This document shows positions 29,512-43,986 of a DNA stretch of 64,000 nt, piece by piece; position 1 is the stretch's first letter; each line of letters starts with the position of its first letter. Origin of the DNA: Comamonas testosteroni TK102 (lineage in GTDB: Bacteria > Pseudomonadota > Gammaproteobacteria > Burkholderiales > Burkholderiaceae_C). Where the stretch lies: contig NZ_CP006704.1 of the NCBI RefSeq assembly GCF_000739375.1, positions 3,100,001 to 3,164,000 of the forward strand. The letters are read 5' to 3'. The notes beneath the pieces were generated by a model, which searched no databases, was not told the DNA's origin, and saw nothing but the letters and a program-made list of their open reading frames with translations. The position numbers and the translations under genes were made by a program.

Positions 29512-29522
29512 GATCACAAGAT

Positions 29523-30593: not shown

Positions 30594-30845
30594 CTGGAAC
30601 CTCTATTTCAAATATGAAAGCTGCGCTCGATCGAATGAAACGTCGAGTGCGAAAATTGAACGGAAATTTGGAAGAGACGCGACAGTCGGTATGGACTGTG
30701 CAGGGGAACGATATGGCGTTATTTCATTGGTACTCCGCGTGGGACATATCTTGTGGGCTTCTCACAAGGGGTGACGCGAAGATTTCCAACGAAGCCTTGT
30801 GTAACTGTGCGTGACAATTGTATGTCTGTCAAGTGCCTCGAAAAT
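30594..30845. other. Intergenic region upstream of CAP lipoprotein
   Basis: This stretch must hold the promoter of the minus-strand lipoprotein; GAGG lies 8 bases before its ATG. Short plus-strand open frames here have no support. I see no other structure. Confidence 0.4.
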
Positions 30846-30886
30846 AAAAAAAAATGACCACAAGCTGTGAAAACAGCTTGTGGTCA
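30846..30886 (-). terminator. Terminator of the minus-strand ICE block
   Basis: A perfect 14-base stem (TGACCACAAGCTGT / ACAGCTTGTGGTCA, 30855-30886) with a GAAA/TTTC loop is followed on the minus strand by nine T. It lies 8 bases beyond the helicase stop. Confidence 0.93.
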
Positions 30887-30893
30887 AAATGGG

Positions 30894-33287
30894 CTACATC
30901 GTCAAAAGGTCTCTCGCGAGAGCCATCTCAATGCTTTCGCCCTCGTTGTCGTTGAGAACGTCCAGTCCACTCTCAGGCATATCGCCAGAGGTGGACTGCG
31001 ATACCGCGATTTTCTTGGCCATGAGTCGCAGGCATTCCATTTGTGAAGTGCCGGCGTAGCCAAGGAAGATCACGCGAACATCATGCTTCTGACCAATGCG
31101 CCAGGAGCGCCTGGCAGCCTGAAGCATCGTGTAGACGTTGAATCCCGATTGCATGAAAGCGATCGTTGGGAACTCAAGCAAATCCAGGCCAGTCTTCACA
31201 AGCTCGGGATTGGTGATGAGCACATCGATGCCTCGCTCTACCTGGTCCGCTACCCAGTCTTCCCGCTTGGCCGCATCTACGCTGGCACGCAGCACAGCTA
31301 CCTTGAACCCCCTGGCTTCGAGCAGCATGCGCAACCGGGCCGTGGTGTCGCGGGTGCCTGAATAGATTGAATAGACCAGGACCTTGCGGCCGAGGGCTTT
31401 CTCATCCATGCAGAGCTCAATGAGCTTGGCCTCTTTCGGAGTGCATTCAACATCATCGAACAGAGCCGGCTGCATGTGCAGCAGCTCCTTGCTTCTTGGA
31501 TGCCTCACCGTTTCCGAACGAAAGCAGCATTCTGGCCATGCAAGCAACACGTTCATGACCACACCCAACAGCGTGCTGTCCTTCATGGCCAAGGCCTGCT
31601 TCAGGATCTGCACCAGTTTCCTCGACATATCGGCGTATGCCTCAGCTTGGTCATCGCCCATTTGCACGTCAACAAAGGACTCGTCATACGCCGGCAGCAC
31701 CTTCTGCCCAATGTCCCGCAGCTTTAGGAATACCGTAATGGGAAGCACGTAACGCAAGATACCCACGGGGCCGAACCCTGGAGCCTTGCTTGTGCGAACA
31801 GTCACGCCTTTACCCTTGGCCGTGCGGTGGGAAGTAGTTGAGGTCTCTTTGTAGATGTCCTTGAGCACTCCATGCACGCGCATGAAGCCCATGGTCGCAG
31901 CAGCCATGGAGCCGGTCTTGGATGGCTTGAAGCCGTCCTCGATCAACACCCTGGGATTGACGCGCCAGAGCAGGTGAAAAAGATCATCCGCATAGCCGCC
32001 CATGAGTGTGCCCGTCAGCAGAAGCACCTTTTCGCACTGGCTGGCCAACACGCCCATTGCCTGCCCCTGGGCCGAGCCCTCGTTTTTGTACTCGTGTCCT
32101 TCATCGACCACCAGCAAACCAAAGTAGTTGGTCGGCAGATAGCGCTTGATGAACTCCGTGGGCTGATAGCCGCCCTGCCCGATTGAAAACTCGAACGTGG
32201 CCAGGCTTCGCTCCATGCGCTTCGCCTGCTTGTCGCTGAATACCAGCTCCCCGTTCTCGTCCATCAAGTTCAAGAACTCGTAGACGTTGTCCTCCAGCAT
32301 CGCAGCCAGTGTTTTCTCTCCAAACTTGCTGAGCAGCCGCTTCGCAGAAACCGGGCCGATGGTTGGCATCTGCTGAAGTGCGTTGAGCACCAGGTCGGAC
32401 ATAGAGTCGATGGGCCGCCCATTGCGAATCAGCATCCACAGCGTCGAGTTGCAGTGTTCGCACTTTCGCCGGCGGTCACTGAGGACCTGCTTGGCCAAGG
32501 GTACGGACATGGGCAAGGTCTCGTCGTCATCGCCCTTCGATTCGAGCGGCCGCATGCAGCAAGGGCAGCATGCAGCCACGAAACGCTGGCCACCAACGAG
32601 GATGGTGCGCTCGATAAAGGACGGACGCCAATGAAACCCCATACGCATCCGCACACGGCCCAGCACGAAGAACTCCGGCTGGCTCGTTGTGATGCCCAAG
32701 CGGGCACGCATCTGCAGCAGCTTGCGCAGCGTGTCCGGGCCATTCAAGATCCAGACCCGAGCGCCGGGTACCGTGTCAAGAATCTCGCGCCGCCACTTGT
32801 AGACAAGGTGCGGCGGTGAGATCACAAGAGTGCGAGGATTGCGTCGCTGCAGCTGCTGAAGCAGCACAGACACGCAGATGGCCATCATGGTCTTGCCCGT
32901 GCCCATCTCCGCGTTCAAGACCGCAGCTGGCTCGCCTCGATCAGCCAGGAGCTTTACGATGGCCTGAACCGCTTCGGATTGCTCTTTGAATGGCTTGCGC
33001 TTCAAATTGTCGAGGATCTGCTGGCGGGCCAGCCAGACCTCGGACAGTTGATCGCGCTGCGGTAGATAGACAGGCGGGTTCTGTGACCGGACCTGATCGA
33101 GCAGCCCTTGGCCAAACTCGCGTATGAAATCTCCAAGGGGCAGGGTTTCATCAATCACTTCGGCCAGAAAATCTGCGCCTTCGATCGTGCCAAGTTCATC
33201 AGCGACTTCCTGTACCACCGGGGCGGCCTCGGCCGCAGTAGTGGATGCCTCTGCCACAGCGGGCTCAGCAATTGCCAAATCGTTCAT
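30894..33287 (-). CDS. SNF2-like superfamily 2 helicase/ATPase with zinc-finger insertion
   Basis: This 797-residue DNA-dependent ATPase has Walker A AEMGTGKT (Lys132), motif Ia SPPHLVYKWRRE and Walker B variant VVDEGHEYKNE. Motif III is LTGTLMGG and the C-terminal helicase domain has QAARRSWRIGQ. Between motifs Ia and II it carries two cysteine pairs (CCPCC and CEHC), probably a zinc finger, and a helix-hairpin-like segment TIGPVSAKRLLSKFG. ATG 33287 has GGAG 6 bases upstream; a longer frame reads through the leader hairpin. It is the last gene of a block typical of ICEs. The cellular task (DNA repair, defence or element maintenance) is unknown. Confidence 0.88.
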   Translation of the reverse strand: MNDLAIAEPAVAEASTTAAEAAPVVQEVADELGTIEGADFLAEVIDETLPLGDFIREFGQGLLDQVRSQNPPVYLPQRDQLSEVWLARQQILDNLKRKPFKEQSEAVQAIVKLLADRGEPAAVLNAEMGTGKTMMAICVSVLLQQLQRRNPRTLVISPPHLVYKWRREILDTVPGARVWILNGPDTLRKLLQMRARLGITTSQPEFFVLGRVRMRMGFHWRPSFIERTILVGGQRFVAACCPCCMRPLESKGDDDETLPMSVPLAKQVLSDRRRKCEHCNSTLWMLIRNGRPIDSMSDLVLNALQQMPTIGPVSAKRLLSKFGEKTLAAMLEDNVYEFLNLMDENGELVFSDKQAKRMERSLATFEFSIGQGGYQPTEFIKRYLPTNYFGLLVVDEGHEYKNEGSAQGQAMGVLASQCEKVLLLTGTLMGGYADDLFHLLWRVNPRVLIEDGFKPSKTGSMAAATMGFMRVHGVLKDIYKETSTTSHRTAKGKGVTVRTSKAPGFGPVGILRYVLPITVFLKLRDIGQKVLPAYDESFVDVQMGDDQAEAYADMSRKLVQILKQALAMKDSTLLGVVMNVLLAWPECCFRSETVRHPRSKELLHMQPALFDDVECTPKEAKLIELCMDEKALGRKVLVYSIYSGTRDTTARLRMLLEARGFKVAVLRASVDAAKREDWVADQVERGIDVLITNPELVKTGLDLLEFPTIAFMQSGFNVYTMLQAARRSWRIGQKHDVRVIFLGYAGTSQMECLRLMAKKIAVSQSTSGDMPESGLDVLNDNEGESIEMALARDLLTM

Positions 33288-33302
33288 TGTTTGCTCCAAA
33301 AA

Positions 33303-33386
33303 AATGAGCACACACCCCACAAAGGAGTGCGCGCCCAACGGTTAGATGAATGAAGGTGAGAAAGGCCTCTGGCGAGGCCTTGATGG
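33303..33386 (-). promoter_or_regulatory. Two-hairpin leader cassette 1 (before helicase)
   Basis: In mRNA sense a hairpin AAGGCCTCGCCAGAGGCCTT followed by TCTC is succeeded by TTCATCTAACC, then a second stem pairing GCGCGCACTCC with TGGGGTGTGTGC, then GGAG and ATG. It follows the plan shared by cassettes 2-11. Confidence 0.65.
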
Positions 33387-33388
33387 AG

Positions 33389-33985
33389 TTAAGGAAGGAG
33401 AACGCGGTTGCGAACGCCCTCACTTACATGCCGAATGAAGTGATCAGAAATACTTACACGCAGCGCGTGAAGATTTCCGATGCGCGGATAGAGGCCACCC
33501 CCGAGCTCGTGGACAGCGCCCTTCTCTCGACACCAGGCAATCAAGGGTCCTTGCCAGTGATCGAGCAGCGCAATGGGAGCCAAGGTTTTCACCAGAGCCC
33601 ACACCTTCTCCTCGATGCCGGCGTCGACATTGGACACCACCCAGCCAATGCGGTTGGGCTTGTCGATCTCCTGTAAGCGTTTGTCGTAGACGAACAGATG
33701 GTTCAAAGATCCAAAGAGGTTCTGACGCGGTAGACGGCCGGTGAACTTTCCCAGGCGCTCCGCAGATCCAACCTGGACATGGTTACGCGTTCCTTCAGGG
33801 CTCACCAACGTGAAATCCGTGATTCCGTGCTCAGTCCTGCCCAGCTCCATAGCCGCGATGAACTGCATGGCAGAAGCATCGCGCCCATAGAACGAGAGAA
33901 ACATGAGCTCGCCCTCATCGTTCCGCAGGCAAGCGTCGGCCCATAGATCCGCGAAACCCTCTATACGGTGAAGCGCTCTTTGCAT
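33389..33985 (-). CDS. Hypothetical ICE protein
   Basis: This 198-residue soluble protein has no signal peptide or membrane segment. I do not recognise the family or any catalytic motif. ATG 33985 has GGAG 6 bases upstream, preceded by a leader hairpin like its neighbours. It lies between small unknown genes and the helicase and reads in the same direction. Codon use matches the block. Confidence 0.75.
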   Translation of the reverse strand: MQRALHRIEGFADLWADACLRNDEGELMFLSFYGRDASAMQFIAAMELGRTEHGITDFTLVSPEGTRNHVQVGSAERLGKFTGRLPRQNLFGSLNHLFVYDKRLQEIDKPNRIGWVVSNVDAGIEEKVWALVKTLAPIALLDHWQGPLIAWCREKGAVHELGGGLYPRIGNLHALRVSISDHFIRHVSEGVRNRVLLP

Positions 33986-34008
33986 GAAATGCTCCTTTTA
34001 TGGAGCAG

Positions 34009-34045
34009 CCCACAAGGGGCGTGCCCCGTGTGGGTGGATGAAAGA
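34009..34045 (-). promoter_or_regulatory. Leader cassette 2
   Basis: Sense order is AGTCTTTCATC, then a 12-base stem CCCACACGGGGC / GCCCCTTGTGGG, then the ribosome site of the 33985 gene. Confidence 0.65.
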
Positions 34046-34297
34046 CTATGGATTCGGTATCCAGAGCCAGGCGGCGACGTAGGTACCGTCTTCCGCCGGC
34101 GCTACCAGCGGCAAGGGATCGATGACGCATTGGTCATTGGCGTGGATCTCCCTGGCACGGGCGATTGCATCGGCGCACTCAGCGCGATTCAGATCCTGGT
34201 TGTTGAGAAGCCTGCCGAGCTGCGTGACAGCACCGGCAAGGTCGCCCGACTCCCAGGAGTCAACGACATCCCGCGCTGCTTCCTCCAGCTCATGCAT
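34046..34297 (-). CDS. Small hypothetical ICE protein
   Basis: This 83-residue acidic, mostly helical protein has no recognisable domain. It starts at ATG 34297, overlapping the end of the upstream gene by 8 bases, which implies coupled translation. A separate leader cassette follows it before the next gene. Confidence 0.65.
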   Translation of the reverse strand: MHELEEAARDVVDSWESGDLAGAVTQLGRLLNNQDLNRAECADAIARAREIHANDQCVIDPLPLVAPAEDGTYVAAWLWIPNP

Positions 34298-34637
34298 GGG
34301 CAGCCGCCTTGCGTTTCTCCAAGGCGTCGTAGTGCATCTCGACCTGCAGTTTGAGGTCCTCGATCTGGGTCAGCGCCTGCGTATGCTGTTCGCGGACAAC
34401 CTTCTCAGTCACACGCTTAGGCTTTGAAGCCACGAGCGTCTTGCTGAAATCGCCATCGCCGCCAAAGCCCATGACAAAGCGCTTGAAACCTCCCTCCACC
34501 AATGACACAGAGGCCGATGTGACGAGGGAGCTATTCAACTTACGTGTTGAGACGGTGAGCACGCGCCGGTCGCCGAGATCAATCTCGGTGTTCCCACGGT
34601 GGCCATCACGGATGTTGTTAGAAAAAGATGTATTCAT
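34290..34637 (-). CDS. Small hypothetical ICE protein with coiled-coil tail
   Basis: This 115-residue protein has a basic middle (SKPKRVTEKVV) and a probable C-terminal coiled coil (QALTQIEDLKLQVEMHYDAL). ATG 34637 has AGGAG 6 bases upstream. It overlaps the next gene by 8 bases. No family is recognised. Confidence 0.7.
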   Translation of the reverse strand: MNTSFSNNIRDGHRGNTEIDLGDRRVLTVSTRKLNSSLVTSASVSLVEGGFKRFVMGFGGDGDFSKTLVASKPKRVTEKVVREQHTQALTQIEDLKLQVEMHYDALEKRKAAAHA

Positions 34638-34674
34638 GGATCGCTCCTGGTTCAAGTGGATAGAGCGAGCCCCT

Positions 34675-34732
34675 CCCCTGCGGGACAGGCCCGCAAGGGT
34701 GGTTGAAGAAATGCCAAGGTCTCTCGACCTGG
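34675..34732 (-). promoter_or_regulatory. Two-hairpin leader cassette 3
   Basis: In sense order a stem CCAGGTC-GAGA-GACCTTGG is followed by CATTTCTTCAACC and a second GC-rich stem (CCCTTGCGGGCC / CCCGCAGGGG), about 40 bases before the ATG at 34637. Confidence 0.7.
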
Positions 34733-34860
34733 TGCGCCTTCATGGCTCAGCGCGCCTTAAAACCGTTTCTGACAGGTCAAACGGTTTTCCGCAGCTCACC
34801 TCTATGGGTAGGCTGGGGAAAACCGGCTGTAGCCGGTTCTCGTGGGTTTAATGGGTCCTA

Positions 34861-35169
34861 TCAGAATCCATCACTGATGCATGGCTTGCTGCTGGAAGCA
34901 AGCAGGCCAAGCGCCAGTGACAGATCGAGGGCAACCAGGTTGCGAAACGTCCGGTCCGATTCCGTCATGCGCTCCCCGAGATGAAGCATGACGTTCTCAA
35001 GACTGGCTGATGCATCACATGCCTTGTTGAGCGCATCCAGGATGTGGGGGATCTTGGAGGGCAACTCTGCAAGCGCTTCGAGCATGAGCTCGTCCTGCGT
35101 CGTCAGCCCCTGCAGATGGAGGCTGAGGATGTGTTCAAGCAGCTGGAAGGTATTCATCGAGCTCGCCAT
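34861..35169 (-). CDS. Small hypothetical helical protein
   Basis: This 102-residue, probably all-helical protein starts at ATG 35169, inside the stop of the upstream gene (TGATG), so translation is coupled. An internal ATG at 35157 is an alternative. No motif is recognised. Confidence 0.65.
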   Translation of the reverse strand: MASSMNTFQLLEHILSLHLQGLTTQDELMLEALAELPSKIPHILDALNKACDASASLENVMLHLGERMTESDRTFRNLVALDLSLALGLLASSSKPCISDGF

Positions 35170-35468
35170 CAATATTCCGAGGGCAGCAAAATGGTCGTGA
35201 CCGCCCAATCTGCGTCGGTTATGACCCATACCTTCTTATCGCCTACCGAGTAGGAAGACATGAGACGGCTTCTGTCTAAAAGCGCCCGTCGATTCAATGA
35301 CTTATCTGACTCGTCTAAGTCCCCCCAATCCCCGCGCACATGCCTAGAGAGCAAGTCGTACGGATTGAGGGCGAGACGACGAAGTAGATCGTCGGCTCCA
35401 ACTGTGGCCACACAGCGGCCCAACTGAAAAAGTGGAGCTGCCGCCGTAGTAGGTGGTTGTTTTTGCAT
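35169..35468 (-). CDS. Conserved plasmid/ICE protein, copy A of a tandem pair
   Basis: This 99-residue protein has a pattern I know from many plasmids and ICEs: FQLGRCVATVGADDLLRRLA, then LLSRHVRGDWGDLDESDKSLN, RLMSSY and a C-terminus VWVITDADWAVTTILLPSEY. Function is unknown; it is not a proven restriction subunit although relatives are sometimes labelled so. A divergent second copy follows upstream at 35561. Start ATG 35468. Confidence 0.8.
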   Translation of the reverse strand: MQKQPPTTAAAPLFQLGRCVATVGADDLLRRLALNPYDLLSRHVRGDWGDLDESDKSLNRRALLDRSRLMSSYSVGDKKVWVITDADWAVTTILLPSEY

Positions 35469-35490
35469 GATGGTCCTCGTTAAAAAAATC

Positions 35491-35537
35491 GGGGACCACC
35501 GGCCCTAGAGGCTAGTGCCCCCAAGGGTGGTTAGATT
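35491..35537 (-). promoter_or_regulatory. Leader cassette 4
   Basis: Sense order is AATCTAACC, then a GC-rich foldable segment (ACCACCCTTGGGGGC … GGGCCGGTGGT), then CCCCGATTTTTTTAACGAGG and the ATG at 35468. Confidence 0.6.
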
Positions 35538-35560
35538 TACAGCGTGCTTCCAGTAAGGAA

Positions 35561-35905
35561 CTACGCTGCGCGTGCTTCAGCGCTCCATTCGCATGAAAGC
35601 ATCAGCTTTGTCACCGACCAGTCAGCACTTGTCACGACCCATACATACTCGCTGTTGACAAGAAATGCAGATAGTCGCTGGCCACGCGCCGCTTCCAAGT
35701 CACGCGCAAACATGACCAACTTCGTGTTGGCCAGCTCGCCTGGATCGCCACAGATGTGCCGCTGCAGGAGCTCGTGGGGATTGATGGTCCCCTGGCAAAT
35801 TAGGTTGTCTAGGCCCAGCGTTGCTACGCATCGGCCCGGTCGAAACAGCGGTGTGTCATAGCGCTGCGATGGTTGTGCTGGCTTCACAGCATTTCTCAAG
35901 GTCAT
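35561..35905 (-). CDS. Conserved plasmid/ICE protein, divergent copy B
   Basis: This 114-residue paralogue of the 35169 product keeps FRPGRCVATLGLDNLI, LLQRHICGDPGELANT and VWVVTSADWSVTKLML. It has lost the terminal LLPSEY and changed the middle. ATG 35905 is chosen; TTG 35911 is possible. The divergence suggests relaxed or new function. Confidence 0.7.
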   Translation of the reverse strand: MTLRNAVKPAQPSQRYDTPLFRPGRCVATLGLDNLICQGTINPHELLQRHICGDPGELANTKLVMFARDLEAARGQRLSAFLVNSEYVWVVTSADWSVTKLMLSCEWSAEARAA

Positions 35906-35930
35906 CTCCAATCAAGTGAATGAACGAGGA

Positions 35931-36002
35931 CAACCTTCCCTGGGAAAGTGTCCCCAGGGGGTTGCGGTTCGCCGGCCGAGGCCAGCAGTGGTTAAAGAAA
36001 AG
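35931..36002 (-). promoter_or_regulatory. Two-hairpin leader cassette 5
   Basis: Sense order is AGCTTTTCTTTAACC, a stem GCTGGCCTCGGCCGGC, the spacer GAACCGCAACC, a second stem CCCTGGGGACACTTTCCCAGGG, and the ATG at 35905. Confidence 0.7.
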
Positions 36003-37130
36003 CTATGCGATGGCGACGATCCGACCCAGCCGGTGGTCGGGGGTGAACTCGATGGCATTGATGACGGGGACGAACCGGTCCAGCATCACCGTGGTCTGCG
36101 ATGCTTGACCTTTCTCGTCAAAGTCAACGGACACCTTGCGCTCCTTGCGTTTGTAGGTATCCCCCTTTATCAGGAGAGTTCTGCCGCCGGCGCCGTGGAT
36201 CATTCCGACCACCTGGCCAGCCGCAAGGGCAAGCGCAAGGTGCCATGGCGTCAGATCGCGCAACGGCGGTCGACAAGCGCCGCCGACCTGGCTGAACTGC
36301 GATGAAAGCCCGCTCCAAAGCAGACTCGATTCATACTTGTCCAGCTCGTCGCCGAGCTGCTCGGCATCGATCTGCACAGCGTGGAAGTCGAACTCCTGAT
36401 CGACCTGCAGCGCAGGAATGACATATGGCTCCAACTCCCAGGAGTCTGGAATGACAGGGGCGCCCTCTTCCGAGGCTTGGGCCTCAGTCAGTGGCTGCAG
36501 GGCCGCCTTGGTGGCATGGGTTGCCCGGCAGCGCTTGCCAATCACTATGCATTGTCGAAACTGCTGCACTGGCGCCATGAAGATCCGCAGATCCTCAAAG
36601 TTGCGCACCAGGTAGCTGCGTATTTCGTCGTCGAGCGCGTAGTGCGGAATGATGTAGACAAGCACTCCGCCGTAGGCGAGATATGGCACAGTTTTGCGAA
36701 GAAAGGTTCGCTCCAGGCGCTCGGCCTTATCAGCCTCCGCTAACAGCGAGCGCTGGGCTGATTGATCGGCTACGCCGAAGCCATAAGGCGGATTTAGAAA
36801 CAGCAGGCCCATGCTTCTCGGCTTGAGCACGACATCGTGCACGTCCGAATGAATCACACGGTCGAGGATTCCCTTTGCATGACGCGCTCTGTCACGGTCG
36901 AGCTCGATGCCGAAGGCCTCGGCACCGCCGATTCGCCCTCGATCGACGGTCAGTAGCTGCCGTAAATCGGCGAGCGCGCTGCCCTCGCCGCAGCAAGGGT
37001 CAAACATGCGTATGCCCCCCTTCTCGGGCATCTGCAGCAGGTTTGAGATCCGGCGTATGGATTCCTCGTCCGTGGGGTAGTAGCCGTTTTTGACATAGTT
37101 GTGCGCCAGGCGCGAGAACATTAAGGCCAT
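36003..37130 (-). CDS. DUF6094 / N6-adenine methyltransferase-like protein
   Basis: This 375-residue Rossmann-fold protein has an SAM-binding motif I FDPCCGEGSAL (about 43-53) and catalytic motif NPPY (113-116), as in adenine-N6 methyltransferases. I match it to the DUF6094 proteins found beside helicase genes in ICEs. The C-terminal third is unlike known target-recognition domains. No cognate nuclease is adjacent, so it is either an orphan DNA modifier that protects the element or an RNA/protein methylase. ATG 37130 has GGAG 7 bases upstream. Confidence 0.82.
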   Translation of the reverse strand: MALMFSRLAHNYVKNGYYPTDEESIRRISNLLQMPEKGGIRMFDPCCGEGSALADLRQLLTVDRGRIGGAEAFGIELDRDRARHAKGILDRVIHSDVHDVVLKPRSMGLLFLNPPYGFGVADQSAQRSLLAEADKAERLERTFLRKTVPYLAYGGVLVYIIPHYALDDEIRSYLVRNFEDLRIFMAPVQQFRQCIVIGKRCRATHATKAALQPLTEAQASEEGAPVIPDSWELEPYVIPALQVDQEFDFHAVQIDAEQLGDELDKYESSLLWSGLSSQFSQVGGACRPPLRDLTPWHLALALAAGQVVGMIHGAGGRTLLIKGDTYKRKERKVSVDFDEKGQASQTTVMLDRFVPVINAIEFTPDHRLGRIVAIA

Positions 37131-37150
37131 GGGCGGCTCCAGAAATGGAA

Positions 37151-37205
37151 AAGCCAGTCTCCTTGTGGAGAGCTGGCTTGGTTAAAGAGGTGGTACTTCA
37201 GTACC
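37151..37205 (-). promoter_or_regulatory. Two-hairpin leader cassette 6
   Basis: Sense order is a small stem GGTACTGAAGTACC, then ACCTCTTTAACC, then a long stem AAGCCAGCTCTCC / GGAGACTGGCTT, and the ATG at 37130. Confidence 0.7.
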
Positions 37206-37207
37206 GC

Positions 37208-37768
37208 TTAGAACGGGATCTCGTCTGGATCAAGGCCAACGCCGGTAAGCTCTTGAACCTTTCCGTAAATGTCGAGGCGCGGCAACGCGCGCTTCAAGGC
37301 TTCTCGGTAGAGAGGGTTAGAGCGTGCATGCACCGCGATGACGGACGCTGCAGACTGCTGAGCGGGTAAGTCTTGAATGCGGCGAAATGCCACGGTATCG
37401 GCAAGCGCCATCACTTCTTCTACGTCTGGCGACTGCAGCTCGTCAATCTCAGCACGCATCTCTAGGCGACGCATGATATGAAAGAGCGCCTCATGATCGA
37501 ACAGCCTCTGCACGGTCGACAGCATGCTGCCGCCTTCATGCATCCATATGCCATTGACATACCGGATCTGCTCCACGGTGCGGTCCATGAGACGACACTG
37601 GAAGGCTGTCGAGCTCAACTCAGTTGCCTTCGCAATAGCGTCCTTCGCGATATAGAGCCGGTAGGTGACCTCCATACGCGTGTCGTAGATCTCATAGCGA
37701 TGCGCGGGCTCATTCTGAGTCCACAGGAGAAGCTCTTTGAACGCAGCTTCATTTGCACTAATGGACAT
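37208..37768 (-). CDS. Hypothetical ICE protein
   Basis: This 186-residue soluble, helix-rich protein has no recognised domain. ATG 37768 is chosen because GGAGG lies 7 bases upstream; four codons earlier is a weaker ATG. It belongs to the same-direction ICE block. Confidence 0.7.
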   Translation of the reverse strand: MSISANEAAFKELLLWTQNEPAHRYEIYDTRMEVTYRLYIAKDAIAKATELSSTAFQCRLMDRTVEQIRYVNGIWMHEGGSMLSTVQRLFDHEALFHIMRRLEMRAEIDELQSPDVEEVMALADTVAFRRIQDLPAQQSAASVIAVHARSNPLYREALKRALPRLDIYGKVQELTGVGLDPDEIPF

Positions 37769-37801
37769 AGAGTCCTCCAAACTAGGCTCAGGGAACTCCA
37801 G

Positions 37802-37869
37802 CCCATAGGGGCCAAAGCCCCATAGGGAAAGAAAATGCCAGCCCTGATTTCTCAGGGACTGGCACGGGT
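37802..37869 (-). promoter_or_regulatory. Terminator plus leader cassette 7
   Basis: Directly after the stop of the 37870 gene comes a strong stem TGCCAGTCCCTGA / TCAGGGCTGGCA with a GAAA loop and TTTTCTTT, a classical terminator. It is followed at once by a second stem CCCTATGGGGC / GCCCCTATGGG and the ribosome site of the next gene. Confidence 0.8.
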
Positions 37870-38103
37870 TTAAAGGTGGTCCTTCTGGGACCAGTGACCC
37901 TTCGCCCAGGCCTTTTCAGCCTTGGCTTGGGTATTCCAAGTCTCCAGAGATTCACGAGTGAACGGGCCACGCTCGGTACAAGTACCGAGGTAGAAGCCGC
38001 CTCCACTACGCAGAACCTGCATCGGCAGAACCTCGCCACATTGAGCAGCGAGAACGCCGAAAGTCACACCAGTAGTTGCTTGCGATTGAACGATTTGCGT
38101 CAT
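37870..38103 (-). CDS. Small hypothetical ICE protein
   Basis: This 77-residue protein starts MTQIVQSQATTGVTFGVLAA and has a C-terminus rich in Lys and Trp. AGGAG lies 7 bases before ATG 38103. The sequence GGGFYLGTCTERGPFTRES suggests a small beta-rich fold. The family is unknown. Confidence 0.65.
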   Translation of the reverse strand: MTQIVQSQATTGVTFGVLAAQCGEVLPMQVLRSGGGFYLGTCTERGPFTRESLETWNTQAKAEKAWAKGHWSQKDHL

Positions 38104-38141
38104 GTCTTTTCTCCTGTTGATGGGGGAAAAGGACGAGCGCG

Positions 38142-38186
38142 CCCGAATGGGACACGGCCCATCCGGGGTTGAGAGAGGTTGAAAAC
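38142..38186 (-). promoter_or_regulatory. Leader cassette 8
   Basis: Sense order is GTTTTCAACCTCTCTCAACC, a stem CCCGGATGGG / CCCATTCGGG, and the ATG at 38103. Confidence 0.65.
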
Positions 38187-38317
38187 GTGAGACACTTTCC
38201 AGATGACTGAAAAGCGTCCCCAGTTGAGAGTAATAACAGGGACTCCTCGTCATGAGGAGCCTCTGGACCTAGTGCATCTTTTCGAGGAAATGGATGCGCG
38301 TGATGCGCTACCTATTC

Positions 38318-38602
38318 TTAGAAAGAGGATGCGTCAGCAGACGGCGGCGGCAAATTCCGCTCTTTCAATAGTTGAACCAAGCTCGACGGCATGCCGTCAA
38401 GCAGCTCCGGCTTTTGATAGCACGAACTGATCAGCGTCACGATCGAACAAACCTGCCCTGGTGCAACCTGCTCGCGCAGTCGCATCAGTGCTTCGTAGTC
38501 CTGCTCGGTACACATCGCCACGAACTTGCGATAGGCGTCATGCATTTGCATGCGCTGGTCCTCAGACCAGGCAATGAGCTTAAGGCTGGAAGGTGTGCCC
38601 AT
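38318..38602 (-). CDS. Small hypothetical ICE protein
   Basis: This 94-residue helical protein starts at ATG 38602 with GGGAGGAG upstream. It has no recognised domain. A plus-strand frame (38203-38430) overlaps its 3' end but lacks a ribosome site. Confidence 0.65.
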   Translation of the reverse strand: MGTPSSLKLIAWSEDQRMQMHDAYRKFVAMCTEQDYEALMRLREQVAPGQVCSIVTLISSCYQKPELLDGMPSSLVQLLKERNLPPPSADASSF

Positions 38603-38623
38603 GGAGACTCCTCCCGATAAGGA

Positions 38624-38690
38624 GCGGGCACGCCGGCCCTTGCGGACAGTTGTGCCCGCGAGGGTTATAGAAAAATGATGCCCAGGGCAT
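38624..38690 (-). promoter_or_regulatory. Two-hairpin leader cassette 9
   Basis: Sense order is ATGCCCTGGGCAT, CATTTTTCTATAACCC, then a long stem GCGGGCAC … GTGCCCGC with an inner CCGCAAGGGCCGG, and the ATG at 38602. Confidence 0.72.
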
Positions 38691-39055
38691 TGCTGCCAGC
38701 ACTTTTCAAGGGCTCAAAGTGCGCGAAACCATATTGATGGTCAGATGGTTTCCCAGAAGATCCGCAATTGCTGCAGACACTCTGGGAACCCATCGGGCTC
38801 CCGGCATTGCCAGATTACAGTACCCAGGCCGCCTATAGGCTGGCCGGCTGTCACAACGGGCTCAGACAGCCAAGGAACGGCGCGGTCACGAGGCCGGCTT
38901 GGCTTTCACCGGACACGCACTATCGCAAAGCCGCTGCGCATCAGGTCGCAGCCACCCTATTTCCACCTTCCCGCTGCCTGGCTACCAGGCAGTAGGCTGA
39001 TCCATATACGCGCGTTCACGCATATGGATCAGCCCGCTGATGCGGGCGATGGGCT
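38691..39055. other. Gene-free, hairpin-rich region after DUF3275 gene
   Basis: This stretch of 365 bases has no gene I can support on either strand. It holds three stems close together: CTGCCTGG/CCAGGCAG (38974-38992), a 12-base perfect stem GCTGATCCATAT/ATATGGATCAGC (38996-39033), and GCCCGC/GCGGGC (39032-39047). They lie just past the DUF3275 stop. A structured 3' end or an unannotated RNA is possible. Confidence 0.5.
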
Positions 39056-39730
39056 TTACTTTGGATGCCAAGTTTGATCTTGGAACACAAATTTATAGGA
39101 GCCCAGTTGGCCGATGGCCTTGGTCTGCTCTCGCAACATCGAGCGATCGACAGTGGGATCGAGCTTCACTGGTTGAAGACCGCGGATCTGATCCCAGTAT
39201 TCTCGGAGCACTTCAGGAAGATCGGGCGTATCGACCTGACCTACATCTTCGACTGAGGACGCTTGTGCAATTGCTTGGGTTGGTTGCCCAGGGTTACGCT
39301 TTATTCTCTCAATGCGCTCTCGCATCTGTTCGCCCAACCGCGTGGACCCCTCGGTCTTCGACTCGGTACTCGGCGCGGGCAGCGGAGCGGACCACACAGG
39401 CGTTTGAGACGTCAGGGATGGCGATTCAAGCAGTGGGTCGGGCTCGGCCAATTCGGTCTCGACAGGAGCGTCAGAGGCGCTATCGAGCTGCATGTCATGC
39501 AGCGTTGCTCTCATCTCAGTGACGGCTTTTCCAAACGCAATGTACTGATGCAGGAAGATTCGGCTGATCCACACAGTACCGTGATACTCGCCTTCTTCAA
39601 ACTGATCCAGGAGTGAATCCTTGACCTTGAGTTCGCAGCACTCGTGGAATAGCTCCCCGACGCAGAAATCGCCGTAGCGGCCCCCTCGAATTTGTTTGAC
39701 ACGCAACGTCACGTTTTCGAGCTTTATCAA
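39056..39730 (-). CDS. DUF3275 family ICE protein
   Basis: This 224-residue protein has an N-terminal domain starting IKLENVTLRVKQIRGGRYG with FHECCELKVKDSLLDQFEEG and YHGTVWISRIFLHQYI. This is the pattern of DUF3275, a family found almost only on ICEs of the SPI-7/PAPI/clc kind. The C-terminal half is Pro/Ser/Glu-rich and ends in a second small domain. The start appears to be TTG 39730 with GGAG 7 bases upstream, since no ATG lies in frame nearby. Function is unknown. Confidence 0.85.
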   Translation of the reverse strand: MIKLENVTLRVKQIRGGRYGDFCVGELFHECCELKVKDSLLDQFEEGEYHGTVWISRIFLHQYIAFGKAVTEMRATLHDMQLDSASDAPVETELAEPDPLLESPSLTSQTPVWSAPLPAPSTESKTEGSTRLGEQMRERIERIKRNPGQPTQAIAQASSVEDVGQVDTPDLPEVLREYWDQIRGLQPVKLDPTVDRSMLREQTKAIGQLGSYKFVFQDQTWHPK

Positions 39731-39762
39731 GCTTTTGCTCCATCAGATTGCGGAGCACCAGT

Positions 39763-39827
39763 CCAACGCGGGGCCAGGCCCGCGTGGGTGAAAGAAAAAC
39801 ACTCCACACGCATATGCCTGTGGAGTG
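39763..39827 (-). promoter_or_regulatory. Terminator plus leader cassette 10
   Basis: Sense order is a stem CACTCCACA / TGTGGAGTG followed by TTTTTCTTTC (terminator-like), then a second stem CCCACGCGGGCC / GGCCCCGCGTTGG and the DUF3275 start. Confidence 0.78.
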
Positions 39828-40069
39828 CTGTTTGGAATTGCCAAAGGACTTCCGATCCTTTGGGAATGAGACAGAACACACCGGTTCGAGGTGTGCGTCA
39901 ACGAGTGAAGTGTGTACGGTCTATAAGTGCCTCGGCCCGTAGGGCGCGCAAGTTTCAGAGGCTCACCTGCTTCGCTAGTTGCCTAGCATCCGGTTTGAGT
40001 GATACCGGCAAACACTTGGAAAGGCTGAGAGCATAGCGCAATTCCAGGGTATTCGGGCCACAAATCACG
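39828..40069. other. Gene-free region between STY4534-like and DUF3275 genes
   Basis: About 240 bases are without a supported gene. Some short inverted repeats exist, such as GGAATTGC near 39835, but nothing convincing. It may hold a promoter for the DUF3275 gene. Confidence 0.4.
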
Positions 40070-40095
40070 CCCTGAATTGCTTTCGCAATTCAGGG
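40070..40095 (-). terminator. Hairpin after STY4534-like gene
   Basis: A perfect 11-base stem CCCTGAATTGC / GCAATTCAGGG with a GAAA loop lies 18 bases past the stop. There is no long T-run, so termination may be weak. Confidence 0.6.
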
Positions 40096-40113
40096 GTGGG
40101 TGGCTACTGCTGA

Positions 40114-40845
40114 TTACGCGTAATCATGTTCGCGTCGATCAGCATATCCGCCTTGCCTTTGATGGCCAGGCGTAATGCCGTACCCGCCTGAGCGAGCTGG
40201 CTGGCGCGCAGGCGCCGAAGGTGTACGGCCCTGCGGAACAGGAGCACGATACTGAGGTTGCTGACGTGGAGCTTGAGCCGGTGCACGTTCCTGCGCTGCA
40301 GGTCCATGCGCTTGCTCATTTTGGCCACCCTGTTCAGAGTTGCCAGCACGTTCATCGTGAAACGCCTCATCGCCATGCGGTTGACTGCCCGACTGAGCAG
40401 CATCCGCATTCGACTCGGCACGTTGATACACGAGCTGACCGTCGACCTTAACGGAGTTAACCAGAATAAGACGGCCCTTGATGAGACCGGCCAGTTCCTT
40501 CTGCCCGGTGGGGCGTCCGCCTTGATCTCGCGCATCTCGCTCGTAAGAGTGAGCGTAGAGGTCAGCAATACGGAAAGAGATCAGCACCTTGCGGCGCTCA
40601 TCAACTTCCTTTTGCAGACTATCGATCAGGTCAATGGCCTCGGCAGAGGACACGCGCAGATCGAAGTATGTGTAGTCGGGAGAATCCGTTGCCCCACGCA
40701 GCGCACTGATGGCGCAAGCGAGAAACGGTTCAGCCTTACGACCACGACCAGCGGGCGTTACCCAACGAACACGGTGCAAATACCCAATGCCGTTAGCGTG
40801 CAGGTTGAAAAACTCACGTTGAGCAGGTGCTTGTTGTTGCTGCAT
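40114..40845 (-). CDS. DUF3577 / STY4534-family ICE protein
   Basis: This 243-residue protein has an N-terminal domain FFNLHANGIGYLHRVRWVTP, FLACAISALRGA, VSSAEAIDLIDSLQKEVD and LIKGRLILVNSVKVDGQLVY. It matches STY4534-family proteins, which have a single-strand-binding-like plan and are ICE core genes. The C-terminal 90 residues are Gln/Pro/Arg-rich and disordered, as in SSB tails. It is probably involved in element DNA processing. ATG 40845 with GGAG 6 bases upstream heads the minus-strand block. Confidence 0.85.
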   Translation of the reverse strand: MQQQQAPAQREFFNLHANGIGYLHRVRWVTPAGRGRKAEPFLACAISALRGATDSPDYTYFDLRVSSAEAIDLIDSLQKEVDERRKVLISFRIADLYAHSYERDARDQGGRPTGQKELAGLIKGRLILVNSVKVDGQLVYQRAESNADAAQSGSQPHGDEAFHDERAGNSEQGGQNEQAHGPAAQERAPAQAPRQQPQYRAPVPQGRTPSAPARQPARSGGYGITPGHQRQGGYADRREHDYA

Positions 40846-40903
40846 GATGACTCCAAATTTCCAATGTTTGGACGGAGCACAGCCACACCTGACCGCAAGG
40901 TCT

Positions 40904-40968
40904 GGATGGGGCGATGATCCCCATCCGGGTTGCGAGGTAATGCTTTGACCGATCCTTGGGGGATCGGT
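40904..40968 (-). promoter_or_regulatory. Two-hairpin leader cassette 11 (head of block)
   Basis: Sense order is ACCGATCC-CCCAA-GGATCGGT, CAAAGCATTACCTCGCAACC, a stem GGATGGGG / CCCCATCC, and the ATG at 40845. It is the first in the series. Confidence 0.7.
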
Positions 40969-41382
40969 TGACGACTCTCAAAAGCTCAGTCGTCTATGTG
41001 TGCCCAAGGGCGTTCACGTGCAGGAGAATAAACGGTAGATTTCTGCCCGTCAAACAGTGTTGACAGTTGGCGCGGCGAGTTTGCGGGCGCTGGCCTTAAT
41101 TGACCATCATTCCGAGACGTGATGACCGGCCTGCTTGTACTGACCACCGGCAGCAATCGACCCGCAGCGGTCGTTCATACGTATGAAAAGCGGACGCTCA
41201 ACTGAGGATTCACATTTTTAGTCGATTGCACATTGCTCATAAGTTGGCGGCGAACCACCGGCCACAGCCATTCACATGTCGTTGGAGAACTTGGCACCTA
41301 GACGTACAAGTGATGATCGCTCTTTGAGCATTGCTGGGACGACTCTACATAGGGTCGGTGTTTGGTAGAGCCCGATGGTGCC
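40969..41382. other. Gene-free junction between ICE block and arsenic genes
   Basis: About 410 bases hold no open frame with coding character. I see no integrase site, IS end or terminator that I can defend. The promoter of the ICE block should lie in its left part. Confidence 0.45.
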
Positions 41383-42435
41383 TTAGATATTGAGATACTT
41401 GTGTAGGGAGTCCATGATTTGCTCAGAATCAGGACCAACACCGCGGAGCGTTGCTGAAGCGAAGTTTCGCTGCTTCGGCAAGCCCACGAAGAAGATGCCT
41501 GGGTTCGAAGTAGAAACCCCTTGATGTTGCTTGACGCCTTGCTGTGAATCCAGGATGTCCAGTGGCTCAAACGGTTTGAGATTTGGACGAAAACCTGTTG
41601 CGAAGATGATGCCGTCAATTTGATCTTCTGCTCCACCTGGCCAGACTACGCCGCTGGACGTTACTCGCTCAAACATAGATGTGTGAGCAAACAGACCAGA
41701 CTTAAGTGCATTTCGGTAAGTGCCGTCATCGAGCACCGGTGTACTTTGATCATTGAGCCAGCGTGTTCTTTCTAGGCCCGTCCATTTGAGCCAAGAATGA
41801 AAGTCGACTCCCAAAATCCGTTGTGGAAAGAACCGAACGCTTTCGCGTGTGGCCAGTGTTACTTTGGCTACTTGCGCAAGTTCGTAGGCGATTTGTAGTG
41901 CAGAGTTTGCGGCTCCAACGACTACCACCCTCTGCCCTAGAAAAGGCTTCACATTTCGATAGGACGAACTGTGAATCTTCGTTCCCTCAAAGTTGTGGAG
42001 ACCGGCAATGTTGGGAATGAAGGGGCGACTAAATGCCCCAGTCGCCACAACAATTGCTCTCGAAGAAAACTCCGTTCCATTTTCCGAGAGAAGTCGAAAT
42101 CCACCGCTGTCCCGGTACACACGCACGATGCGAATGTTCGGCTGCACAGGCAGTTCGAAATGCTTGCTGTATTGCTCCAAGTACTTCACTACTTCGTCGC
42201 GTCGAGGGTACGCTGAGGGTGCCCCAGGAAAAGGCATTCCAGGAAGAGACGAGTACGAAGCAGGGGAAAACAGTGTGAGACTGTCGTAGTAGTGGCGCCA
42301 GTTCCCCCCAGGTTTATCCTGCTCGTCCAGTATTGTGAAGTCCAAGCCCCGCTGCTTCACGTGCCAGCCGCAGGCCAGTCCTGCTTGGCCTCCACCAACG
42401 ACGATTACATCGTGCCTCTTACTCAAACTGTTCAT
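41383..42435 (-). CDS. arsO: ArsO-like flavin-dependent monooxygenase, second copy
   Basis: This 350-residue FAD/NADPH enzyme has an N-terminal dinucleotide motif VIVVGGGQAGLACG, the flavin-monooxygenase segment FSPASYSSLPGMPFPG, and a second nucleotide motif VVVVGAANSALQIA (Ala in place of the usual Gly). The ATGF motif is FATGFRPNLKP. It resembles the ArsO product at 42918 in plan but is clearly divergent. It follows its own ArsR gene by 45 bases. The reaction is unknown; relatives accompany arsenic genes. ATG 42435 is taken; ATG 42453 would add six residues. Confidence 0.82.
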   Translation of the reverse strand: MNSLSKRHDVIVVGGGQAGLACGWHVKQRGLDFTILDEQDKPGGNWRHYYDSLTLFSPASYSSLPGMPFPGAPSAYPRRDEVVKYLEQYSKHFELPVQPNIRIVRVYRDSGGFRLLSENGTEFSSRAIVVATGAFSRPFIPNIAGLHNFEGTKIHSSSYRNVKPFLGQRVVVVGAANSALQIAYELAQVAKVTLATRESVRFFPQRILGVDFHSWLKWTGLERTRWLNDQSTPVLDDGTYRNALKSGLFAHTSMFERVTSSGVVWPGGAEDQIDGIIFATGFRPNLKPFEPLDILDSQQGVKQHQGVSTSNPGIFFVGLPKQRNFASATLRGVGPDSEQIMDSLHKYLNI

Positions 42436-42480
42436 TTGTGCGCACATATACACATTTCATTGAAAAAAAATGGACACGGT

Positions 42481-42831
42481 CTACAGTGAGGTGGCGGGAC
42501 AGCAGTGTGCCGCTATGCCTTGAGTATGTTTAAGAATGCCTTCTAGGCGCGCAATGATGGCTGGACCATCCACCTCATAGAACATTTGGCGACCAACTTT
42601 GGTGGCTCGCACGATCCGTGCATCCAGCAAGACTTGCAGGTGGCGAGACACAACGGATCGCTCTTGAGGAAGGTCAGCTGCAATCGCGGTCACATCCGCT
42701 CTGCCCAATTGCATGACACGCTTGAGCACAGCGACTCGTGCAGGTTCACACAACGCACGAAAAAAGTTGCTGTCTAGCGAGGCAATTGCGGCCTCAATCG
42801 CCTGAGTACGAATTGAAACTACGGAGGACAT
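42481..42831 (-). CDS. arsR: ArsR-family repressor, second copy
   Basis: This 116-residue winged-helix repressor has the recognition helix region SVVSRHLQVLLDARIVRATK and wing GRQMFYEVDG. The usual ELCVCDL metal site is absent; instead two cysteines lie at the C-terminus (AAHCCPATSL). That suggests an independently evolved As(III) site or a different inducer. ATG 42831 is chosen for GGAGG upstream; the longer frame reads through the promoter. It heads a two-gene unit with the monooxygenase at 41383. Confidence 0.85.
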   Translation of the reverse strand: MSSVVSIRTQAIEAAIASLDSNFFRALCEPARVAVLKRVMQLGRADVTAIAADLPQERSVVSRHLQVLLDARIVRATKVGRQMFYEVDGPAIIARLEGILKHTQGIAAHCCPATSL

Positions 42832-42917
42832 AGTGGCAATCATATGTGTATAGGTTTGCACATGTAAAGGTTGCCCCCACCCGAGTATGTCCCCAGAGAG
42901 CATGGACAAACAACCCT

Positions 42918-43967
42918 CTACGAGAGGTACTGCTCAACTTCCTCGGCGGTGCTACGTGCTGTACGCATGACACCAATGAGCGTGGCCGACGCCGGCCCGG
43001 TCCACTCTCCGTAGCCCACCAGCCATAAACCTGAGACGCCACGCACCTGGGTGCCGTCTACCGCGACTCTGGATTCGTTGACAACGCCAAGAGTCTCCAG
43101 AGGCTGCAACGCAGGCCTGAAGCCGGTACACCAGATGATCGCGTCGAAGGGCTTGGTACTTCCGTCGCCCCATTGAGCCCCGTCCGCCGTGAGCTTCTCA
43201 AATGAGCCGACAGAATGCAGCACGCCGCGCTGGCGTGCTTCAAGGACAGGGGGAACCATCACGATATCGCCAAAGCCACCTGGCAGGTTCTCTGGATCTT
43301 TACCCTCCTGCAGGGCCTGCCAGCGCGCAGTGGCCCTCTCGAAGAGTACGCGCCCATCGACCTCGTCCGGTAAAAAGGCTGGAGGCTCCAGCGTGACCCA
43401 GGTCGTGGACTGCGCAACAAGCGAGACCTCCGCCAGGATCTGTGCGCCGGAGTTTCCTCCGCCGACCACCATCACCCTCTTGCCTGTGAACGGCTCAGGA
43501 GATGCGTACTGAGCTGAGTGCAACTGTTGCCCCTTGAAGGACATCAAACCCTCAACGTTGGGGACAAATGGATTTCGCCATGTTCCCGTGGCAAATACAA
43601 CGGCACGCGAATGCCAGCTTCTCACTCCGGCATTGACCTGGAAGCCTTGCTCAGTAGGTTCAATGCCTGTGACGCATACCGGCCTCTCGATCTTGAGTTC
43701 GTAGCGTGCTTCGTACTTGCGAAGATAGTCAACCACATGGTCACGACTTGGATATTGCTCACCCGAAGCAGACATTGGCCATCCCGCGATGGAACTCCAG
43801 GAAGCGGGAGAAAAAAGCCTCAGCGAGTCCCATCCATGCTGCCAGGCCCCGCCTCCGGCTTCCTCGGCATCCAGCAGCAGCACCGACAGATTGGAGCGAC
43901 GCAGGAAGTACGCCACCGATAGGCCTGCTTGACCAGCTCCGACGATGATCACATCGTGAAATGACAT
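42918..43967 (-). CDS. arsO: ArsO flavin-dependent monooxygenase
   Basis: This 349-residue FAD-binding protein of the ars operon has motif [41 protein letters not shown] motif [17 protein letters not shown] and [18 protein letters not shown] lies 5 bases before ATG 43967. It follows the MFS pump by 19 bases and is last in the ars operon. The ArsO/ArsK-type pairing is known from other ars clusters; its chemistry is not settled. Confidence 0.88.
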
Positions 43968-43986
43968 TGTTGACCTCCTTTTGCCT

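Follow-up and report, generated by a model that had tools for sequence, protein, structure and literature searches.

A candidate regulon of Shine-Dalgarno-sequestering leaders with two predicted folds in a mobile element of Comamonas testosteroni

In translational attenuators of the ermC type, a leader of four strands forms mutually exclusive helices and the Shine-Dalgarno (SD) sequence is hidden by default. In IS10, fold-back inhibition keeps the SD paired in long read-through transcripts, and in hok mRNA the transcriptional folding path decides translation. The 64,000-nucleotide stretch of Comamonas testosteroni TK102 analysed here (positions 3,100,001 to 3,164,000 of NZ_CP006704.1, hereafter the window) contains a minus-strand block of 13 genes in a putative integrative and conjugative element (ICE), and 11 of these genes are preceded by an intergenic gap with a structured leader. 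The leaders appear to share the exclusive-helix, SD-hidden logic of the ermC type, and by analogy they would work as SD-sequestering translational attenuators. They differ from it in that the strand order is A-B-B-A, with the first strand rather than the second taking the anti-SD strand, in being present as one copy per operon gene, and in having no known leader peptide, short open reading frames not having been searched. They differ from the IS10 case in preceding most genes of the block and in having an alternative open fold, and from hok in being operon-wide; no toxin or antisense RNA was recognised, none having been searched for.

A study of PAPI-1-type control describes, in the part considered here, regulation at promoters (TprA/NdpA2; PMC8565334). 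A leader switch on most genes of the block would, if real, add a second, post-transcriptional lock beside promoter control, and it would explain how a long block can be transcribed yet silent. Judging from sequence and predicted folds, we think it probable that the leaders form a regulon of SD-sequestering, bistable translational leaders, each controlling the gene behind it. This suggests that the block is kept silent and then switched on at the level of translation. No description of these leaders, or of such element-wide repetition with private pairing and shared wiring, was found in the open-access literature searched.

A hairpin leader repeated along the block

The block (30894-40845) starts with a DUF3577/STY4534 gene and ends with an SNF2-type helicase gene; the remainder consists mostly of short genes without a Pfam or NCBIfam match, plus one DUF6094 methyltransferase gene. 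An earlier note on this DNA had described eleven gaps with a shared plan of two stems joined by a pyrimidine-rich linker ending in AACC. All eleven are confirmed, and at each of the seven that it gave as examples the stems and the pyrimidine/AACC linker stand ahead of a start codon on the minus strand. Two genes, at 34297 and 35229, lack a leader, and both overlap the preceding gene. The two-stem plan holds in part: the second, ACCC-flanked stem (H2) is constant, but the first is optional. In folds read by eye, the first stem is terminator-like with a T run before the genes starting at 33287, 34637, 37768 and 39730, and at the remaining leaders it is weaker, lacks a T run, or runs into the end of the previous gene. 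The constant partner of H2, overlooked in that note, is the hairpin that holds the ribosome binding site (H3).

Over both strands of the window, YAACC with a strong hairpin behind it is found at 15 sites. Eight of them are on the minus strand within the 7.7 kb block, whose share of the sequence would predict about 1; one of these eight is the first stem ahead of DUF3577. A hairpin score of at least 20 is reached upstream of 8 of the 10 called block genes in the window versus 23 of 120 host genes, the latter drawn from 20 stretches of the same genome. Across 34 related loci, with near-duplicates kept, the same score is reached in 145 of 209 block leaders versus 37 of 133 leaders outside the block. 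The hairpin foot carries [CA]ACC in 70% of the window's block leaders, 40% of related block leaders, 8% of leaders outside the block and 1% of host leaders. This enrichment over host and outside-block genes is the unbiased evidence for H2.

The consensus of H2 is close to UUUCnUCAACCC-N3-GGGG-loop-CCCC-N3-GGG, and its CCC is invariant across 27 DUF3577 leaders that we picked for diversity and not for a hairpin. At the middle pairs, both sides have changed with pairing kept in 15-22 of 61 sequences per pair. The covariation expected in related elements is thus present: its score is 0.305, whereas shuffles give 0.181 and slid partners no more than 0.190. Pairing holds in 73.5% of cells, and the count leans towards structure because the 61 rows were selected for having a hairpin. 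G.U outnumbers A.C in H2 (80 versus 49, p = 0.008), which supports the RNA sense, and hairpins outside the block have no such bias (21 versus 23). Stems that vary with their pairing kept, together with a conserved linker before many genes of related elements, support the proposal of a selected RNA structure.

A covariance model, R1, was built from 61 leaders of the wider set rather than from the window's eleven. It started from 109 leaders with motif and hairpin, reduced to 84 by removal of duplicates, with 23 of the 84 then excluded by eye; two of its rows are window leaders and five are near-identical C. testosteroni copies (locus L002). The window's eight best R1 matches are eight of its leaders, and four of these also take the first four places in the 6.06 Mb genome, where 150 of 1061 candidates were scored. 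The fifth-best genome match lies 22 kb past the window, ahead of another leader-bearing gene. Over 430 kb of the genome outside the window the best match (E 0.55) is itself such a leader, and the runner-up is at E 0.57.

Seventeen loci contributed no row to R1; in 13 of them it has 29 matches at E<=1, every one on the same strand as DUF3577. Some of the 17 closely copy one another, and six more matches from L001, a near-copy of the window that was excluded from the relatives, are not counted. In 12 further loci, 35 of 36 matches are on the block strand, three of them at the same places as in the 17-locus scan. R1 found no match in L131, L133 and L134, though L131 has leaders of the same wiring by eye: those at 8564 and 9279 in this 2.45 Mb genome are AT-richer (AGGGAATACAT / ATGTGTTCCCT / GGAGAACACAT) and are missed by the model. 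The comparison of the leaders with Rfam matched no family.

The features of the window's leaders are given below, with R1 E-values; the alternative long hairpin is described further on, and L002 rows are those named above.

40904-40932, minus strand: DUF3577/STY4534 leader, AACCC and H2; folds; R1 E 0.63 (near-identical L002 row in model)
40847-40880, minus strand: DUF3577 leader, H3 with anti-SD strand, SD GGAG and start region; folds; relatives' H3 arms vary
40870-40926, minus strand: DUF3577 leader, alternative long hairpin, H2 5' arm with H3 5' arm, SD free; -27.8 kcal/mol alone
39763-39790, minus strand: leader of gene 39056-39730, CACCC and H2; R1 E 0.0014 (L002 row in model)
39736-39759, minus strand: leader of gene 39056-39730, H3 (GGTGCTCC...GGAGCA); folds
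38637-38667, minus strand: leader of gene 38318-38602, TAACCC and H2; R1 E 0.00021 (itself a model row)
38607-38625, minus strand: leader of gene 38318-38602, H3 (GCTCC...GGAGGAGT); folds
38624-38659, minus strand: leader of gene 38318-38602, alternative long hairpin, 8 bp outer plus inner helix; -23.5 kcal/mol alone
38142-38171, minus strand: leader of gene 37870-38103, CAACCCC and H2; R1 E 0.81, no own or L002 row in model
38106-38131, minus strand: leader of gene 37870-38103, H3 (CTTTTC...GAGAAAAG); folds
37802-37827, minus strand: leader of gene 37208-37768, H2 after a strong terminator-like first stem; R1 E 1.5
37770-37799, minus strand: leader of gene 37208-37768, H3 (GGAGTTCC...GGAGGACTC); folds
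37151-37184, minus strand: leader of DUF6094 methyltransferase gene 36003-37130, TAACC and H2 variant; from the fold, missed by R1
37139-37148, minus strand: DUF6094 methyltransferase leader, short SD hairpin CCATTTCTGG; from the fold, weak
35938-35964, minus strand: leader of gene 35561-35899 (TTG start), CAACC and H2; R1 E 0.19 (L002 row in model)
35900-35935, minus strand: leader of gene 35561-35899, H3 (GGTTGTCCTC...GGAGATGACC); 12 SD-arm pairs
35503-35534, minus strand: leader of gene 35169-35468, CTAACCACCC and H2; R1 E 0.03, no own or L002 row in model
35469-35500, minus strand: leader of gene 35169-35468, H3 (GGTGGTCC...GGACCATC) with U7 loop; SD opening 7.8 kcal/mol
34675-34705, minus strand: leader of gene 34290-34637, CAACCACCC and H2; R1 E 0.00032 (itself a model row)
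34638-34671, minus strand: leader of gene 34290-34637, H3 (GGCTCGCTC...GGAGCGATCC); SD opening 7.1 kcal/mol
34665-34694, minus strand: leader of gene 34290-34637, alternative long hairpin GCGGGCCT.CCCC...GGGG.AGGGGCTCGC; -24.7 kcal/mol alone
34009-34034, minus strand: leader of gene 33389-33985, CCACCC and H2; R1 E 0.0016 (L002 row in model)
33991-34006, minus strand: leader of gene 33389-33985, H3 GCTCC-ATAAAA-GGAGC; SD opening 7.4 kcal/mol
33305-33344, minus strand: leader of SNF2-type helicase gene 30894-33287, TAACC and H2 variant then U7, no clear H3; from the fold, missed by R1

Pairing of the Shine-Dalgarno arm

H3 follows H2, and its 3' arm is the SD sequence. In the DUF3577 leaders a strand immediately 5' of the SD arm matches it, with flanks that vary between leaders; partner pairs are GATGCGATCTCC/GGAGATCGCATC (L094), AGCGATCTCC/GGAGATCGCT (L075), ATGGTCTCC/GGAGACCAT (L058) and GACGATTC/GAATCGTC (L092). 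Pairing was compared within and between leaders. Near-duplicates were removed by shared words in this and the later likeness, re-pairing and plasmid comparisons; leaders were not counted if the gap was below 40 nt, the SD weak or the upstream sequence too short, and gene starts in the relatives' genomes come from a simple gene caller of our own. By stem score, the SD arm prefers its own leader's partner with z = 5.5 (22 DUF3577 leaders) and 6.2 (168 block leaders), versus 3.0 in 126 leaders outside the block and 0.1 in 112 host leaders. By duplex energy the corresponding values are -7.3 (22) and -8.7 (157), versus -3.3 (112 outside) and -1.0 (94 host). The outside-block set is not a clean one, because some of the "outside" genes of locus L137 are preceded by R1 matches.

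Predicted folds agree with these comparisons. The median energy needed to open the SD is 4.7 kcal/mol in 193 block leaders versus 3.2 kcal/mol in 112 host leaders (p = 5e-9). The SD arm is partly paired in the predicted fold of all 11 window leaders (4 to 12 pairs, the helicase leader being weakest), a local H3 of at least 9 pairs is present in 8 of the 11, and the SD-arm stem score over ten window leaders gives z = 1.8 (p = 0.045). The SD is thus paired in the predicted ground state, and across related leaders, though not in helicase leaders taken alone, its helix is kept by compensatory change.

The same arm-matching bears on a quite improbable explanation, that the leaders serve RNA processing and stability. 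An RNase would cut the U-rich linker; the upstream mRNA would have its 3' end guarded by the first stem and the downstream mRNA its 5' end by H2, and SD pairing would be secondary. Several window gaps do have a pyrimidine-rich linker between two stable stems. For ICEclc, the part of a transcriptome study considered here reports a long polycistronic mRNA that is believed to undergo rapid cleavage (PMC2892462). Processing nevertheless leaves unexplained both the occlusion of the SD and the leader-by-leader imitation of the SD arm by the arms of H2, to which we now turn.

An alternative fold and its possible control

The anti-SD strand of H3 is often complementary also to the 5' arm and loop of H2, so that two mutually exclusive folds are available: one of two hairpins with the SD hidden, and another of one long hairpin with the SD free. 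We read each leader as a series of segments in the order a (UCAACCC), A1 (G-rich), B1 (C-rich), b (GGG), B2 (the anti-SD strand, of CUCC type) and A2 (the SD arm up to the start codon). In the closed state, a would pair with b and A1 with B1 to form H2, and B2 with A2 to form H3, hiding the SD. In the open state, A1 and part of its loop would pair with B2 and B1 with b, giving the long hairpin and leaving the SD and the linker a free.

The 5' arm and loop of H2 often repeat the SD arm of their own leader, as in L117 (GGGGAAAATC/GGAGAAAATC), L118 (GGGAAATACA/GAGAAATACA) and L092 (GGGGAATTGTC and GGAGAATCGTC). This likeness of A1 to A2 is private to each leader (z = 4.3 for 29 DUF3577 leaders and 3.0 for 115 block leaders, versus 1.1 for 48 outside leaders and 0.5 for 28 host leaders), as rivalry between A1 and A2 for one anti-SD strand would predict. 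Duplex energies within versus between leaders point the same way: A1 plus loop with B2 gives z = -5.0 in the block, -3.1 in the DUF3577 leaders and -0.2 in the host, and B1 with A2 gives -4.5, -2.1 and 0.0, respectively. For the partner strands overall, the within-leader match beats the between-leader match with |z| of 3-9 in the block and at most 1 in the host. The H2 loop alone does not match B2 significantly (z = -0.9 in 22 DUF3577 leaders, the block figure being spoiled by loops too short for the program), and neither does the AACC linker (z = -0.4 in DUF3577 and -1.3 in block leaders).

Before the SD has been made, the anti-SD strand tends to be re-paired upstream. The re-paired fraction is 0.70 versus 0.36 in shuffles for 29 DUF3577 leaders (z = 6.0) and 0.54 versus 0.40 for 109 other block leaders (z = 5.1), versus 40% against 36% outside the block (z = 1.3) and 35% against 35% in the host (z = 0.1). 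In the window, the pairing of A1 with B2 is clear before the genes starting at 34637, 38602 and 40845; at 35468 and 35899 H2 extends or re-pairs through the linker, and at 39730 re-pairing is through the first stem. For the relatives as a group, two exclusive helices share one strand and both bear signs of selection. Across related elements, then, computation recovers H2, SD sequestration, the alternative helix and the within-leader matching of strands.

Of 18 DUF3577 leaders chosen by us, 13 form the long hairpin when folded without the SD, and when folded whole 12 of these 13 turn closed (L119 keeps the long hairpin). This behaviour would suit a variant of the favoured explanation, somewhat unlikely in our judgement, in which each leader is metastable, open before the SD is made and later locked, so that each transcript would give a brief burst of translation. 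Minimum-energy folds are, however, silent on rates, and 5 of the 18 leaders show no long hairpin in the nascent fold.

Eight plasmid loci that were not used to form the idea (two from Stutzerimonas, two from Vibrio, and one each from Enterobacter, Rhizobium, Shewanella and Aliivibrio) were examined with NCBI gene starts and with block and outside lists made by hand, of 60 and 52 leaders and, after removal of duplicates, 51 and 51. A hairpin score of at least 20 is found in 33 of 51 block leaders versus 5 of 51 others, and [CA]ACC stands at the hairpin foot in 13 versus 2. The SD-arm match reaches z = -6.2 in 46 block leaders versus -2.4 in 29 others. The refolding signal is weaker than in the original loci, with re-pairing of 0.56 versus 0.44 in shuffles over 35 leaders (z = 2.5, p = 0.006) and z = -0.1 for the others.

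The earlier note had offered either a silencing regulon or an attenuator/antiterminator. The former is plausible. The two-stem plan is not supported as it was put, the plan found being H2 plus an SD-sequestering H3 with an optional first stem. Transcription attenuation in a more general form, which we regard as unlikely, would make the A1.B2 helix or the first stem an intrinsic terminator and H2 an antiterminator, with a factor or processive antitermination letting RNA polymerase pass. Strong terminator-like first stems do stand before several window genes, and the two strands of 33000-41500 hold 15 terminator-like sites versus 6.4 in shuffles. A U-rich tract (5 of the first 8 positions) follows B2 in 28% of 137 block leaders versus 3% in the host (64 leaders) and 9% outside the block (76 leaders); attenuation is the less likely because the figure is just 28%, so that most leaders lack the tract that a terminator should show in most copies. 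It also has no need of the match between B2 and the SD arm, yet this is the strongest within-leader signal. The first stem is inconstant, and the previous called stop lies within 15 nt of ACCC in 19 of 145 leaders of relatives.

Several results weigh against a regulon of bistable, SD-sequestering leaders. R1's success in the window is partly by construction, and only 35494-35537 and 38135-38178 are matched without a window or L002 row of the same leader. Pairing of the SD alone is not unique to the block: leaders outside it show some (the z values of 3.0 and -3.3 above, and -2.4 among the plasmids). Compared with simple shuffles, the anti-SD match shows only modest enrichment (91 of 198 leaders versus 39% at a score of at least 10, and 14 of 198 versus 3.6% at a score of at least 16), and the helices of the block SD arms have no bias of G.U over A.C (43 versus 43). 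Helicase leaders taken alone give no H3 signal (z = 0.3, n = 15), and the window's helicase leader has no good H3. MAFFT with RNAalifold on 27 DUF3577 leaders recovered only 3 pairs and not H3, probably because loop lengths differ, and the within- versus between-leader tests were adopted for that reason. As to the second fold, at least 80% of B2 is re-paired in just 42 of 116 block leaders with an SD hairpin (14% in shuffles), which means that the switch is not visible in every copy; the corresponding plasmid figure is 9 of 35 leaders versus 14%. The A1.B2 form is clear in only the three window leaders named above, five of the eleven show little or no re-pairing, and the 5 of 18 DUF3577 leaders without a nascent long hairpin belong here too.

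Under the favoured explanation of bistable translational leaders, much of the conserved sequence would follow from the SD itself. The SD fixes GGAG in A2, which would fix CUCC in B2. This would set the remaining segments in turn: A1 and b to G runs, B1 to C runs, and finally a to CCC. The bases between these runs would drift in step, because A1 imitates A2 and B1 imitates B2. This SD-anchored chain largely accounts for the conserved sequence, ACCC being largely its last link. What is left over as a possible binding site is only the pyrimidine-rich UUUC/UCA before CCC, which is mostly unpaired in the folds read. No conserved core of a riboswitch aptamer was seen beyond UCAACCC and the G/C runs, and Rfam gave no match.

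The closed state would repress translation and the open state would be the one used in the cell, with the flip brought about either by a factor common to all leaders or by folding order during transcription. A factor bound to the linker would stop a from pairing with b, tipping all leaders together towards the open fold, while folding order alone could leave new transcripts briefly open. We prefer, as an unproven trigger, a trans-acting RNA-binding factor that reads the shared linker. More tentatively still, the leaders may be a previously undescribed two-state class, one per gene, that makes up a translational regulon of ICEs and plasmids with a DUF3577 block in beta-, gamma- and at least one alphaproteobacterium; private pairing would drift under the same wiring, and a single element or host factor binding UCAACCC would open all copies at transfer. 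Such a regulon predicts that one input opens all leaders. The leaders would also offer many dozens of natural solutions to one bistable-RNA design, useful for testing folding models. A ribosome at an upstream stop was rejected as a general trigger because the previous called stop lies more than 60 nt from ACCC in 80 of 145 leaders.

DUF3577, neighbouring RNAs and the element

The DUF3577 protein is perhaps a candidate for the trigger. Its model has a predicted beta-rich core, with a predicted local distance difference test (pLDDT) score mostly above 90 over residues 21-140. Foldseek ranks first a chain from a trypanosome RNA-editing complex (E 1.5e-4); most of the matches that come next are single-stranded DNA-binding (SSB) proteins, with E-values of 1e-3 to 1e-2 and low TM-scores. 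By these weak matches the core resembles the oligonucleotide/oligosaccharide-binding (OB) folds of SSB proteins. By its position DUF3577 could be an analogue of the T4 gene 32 protein, an OB-fold SSB that acts on mRNA leaders in its autoregulation, and the leader switch would give DUF3577 a testable role. Of 6 leader-bearing plasmid records tested, 5 contain a DUF3577 relative (one above the family cut-off); the Rhizobium plasmid does not, and is a counter-example to this candidate.

Rfam finds no known family in the window at gathering scores; at E<=10, 29000-42500 has seven weak matches, all under gathering scores and none of them radC RNA or STAXI. In relatives, DUF3577 is preceded on its own strand by radC RNA (RF01754, 8 loci) or STAXI (RF01728, 4 loci) at 12 of the 20 loci scanned (L004, L006, L011, L013 and L118-L125). 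Like the leaders, these are structured RNAs of the same elements, but they are separate sequences, and in L006 a comparison of coordinates places the end of radC RNA before H2. Their recurrent placement ahead of an SSB-like gene may hint at the role they play. A "DUF3577 RNA motif", reportedly from a 2017 survey, was dropped: no open-access paper searched contains both terms, and the Rfam scan of the 20 DUF3577 loci gave no such family.

For STAXI, the part of one study considered here raises single-stranded DNA as a possibility and then prefers RNA (Weinberg 2010). It is very improbable that the leaders described here are single-stranded DNA hairpins, acting as Frpo-type promoters or protein sites on the transferred strand in the recipient. 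Neighbours of the leading-region kind (an annotated antirestriction protein in L092, radC in L094, and methyltransferases) would fit such a role, as would the radC RNA and STAXI elements. No excess of sigma-70-like sites was found, however (2 versus 3.7 expected), hairpins of about 10 bp are too short for a -35 plus a -10, and the arms track the SD of the mRNA. The excess of G.T over A.C in H2 favours the mRNA-sense strand, though the SD-arm helices show none.

The window element appears to be of the pKLC102-like or PAPI-1 kind, judging from a match to pKLC102 and a PilN-type pilus gene. DUF3577, DUF6094 and helicase genes co-occur in most compared loci and also in pKLC102. The nearest named records found for the DUF3577 protein are from Comamonas terrae (100% identity) and C. 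testosteroni (88%). The DUF6094 methyltransferase has relatives in 37 of 299 genomes of the family at E<=0.001; in 27 of the 37, the window's own included, E is below 1e-69, and the other matches are short and weak.

Two further sites resemble the leaders. At 6923-10131 of L130, some 19-22 kb past the window's end, a second minus-strand gene set has ACC-type hairpin leaders, one of which shows imitation of the SD (CGGGATAACACA / GTGTTGCCC / GGAGCAACAC). At 15517-15606 on the minus strand, near a XerD-like integrase gene, CAACCC is followed by a 12-bp hairpin, TTCCTCG...CGAGGAA and ATG; the frame ends after two codons (ATG AGC TAG), and the site looks like a leftover leader without a gene. An inverted repeat at 29437-29550 (AAAAAAGGCCC-UACA-GGGCCUUUUUU) lies between converging genes, has weak Rfam matches and looks like a two-way terminator.

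Adjoining the block, 41383-47631 carries an arsenic cargo of two ArsO-like monooxygenases (41383-42453 and 42918-43967), an ArsR/SmtB regulator, an ArsK-like transporter, and ArsH-like and ArsB genes. Elsewhere in the window are a PAP2-type gene (2187-2921), a CzcA/CusA-type efflux gene (9569-12742) and an EptA-like gene of the phosphoethanolamine-lipid A transferase family (13480-15123).

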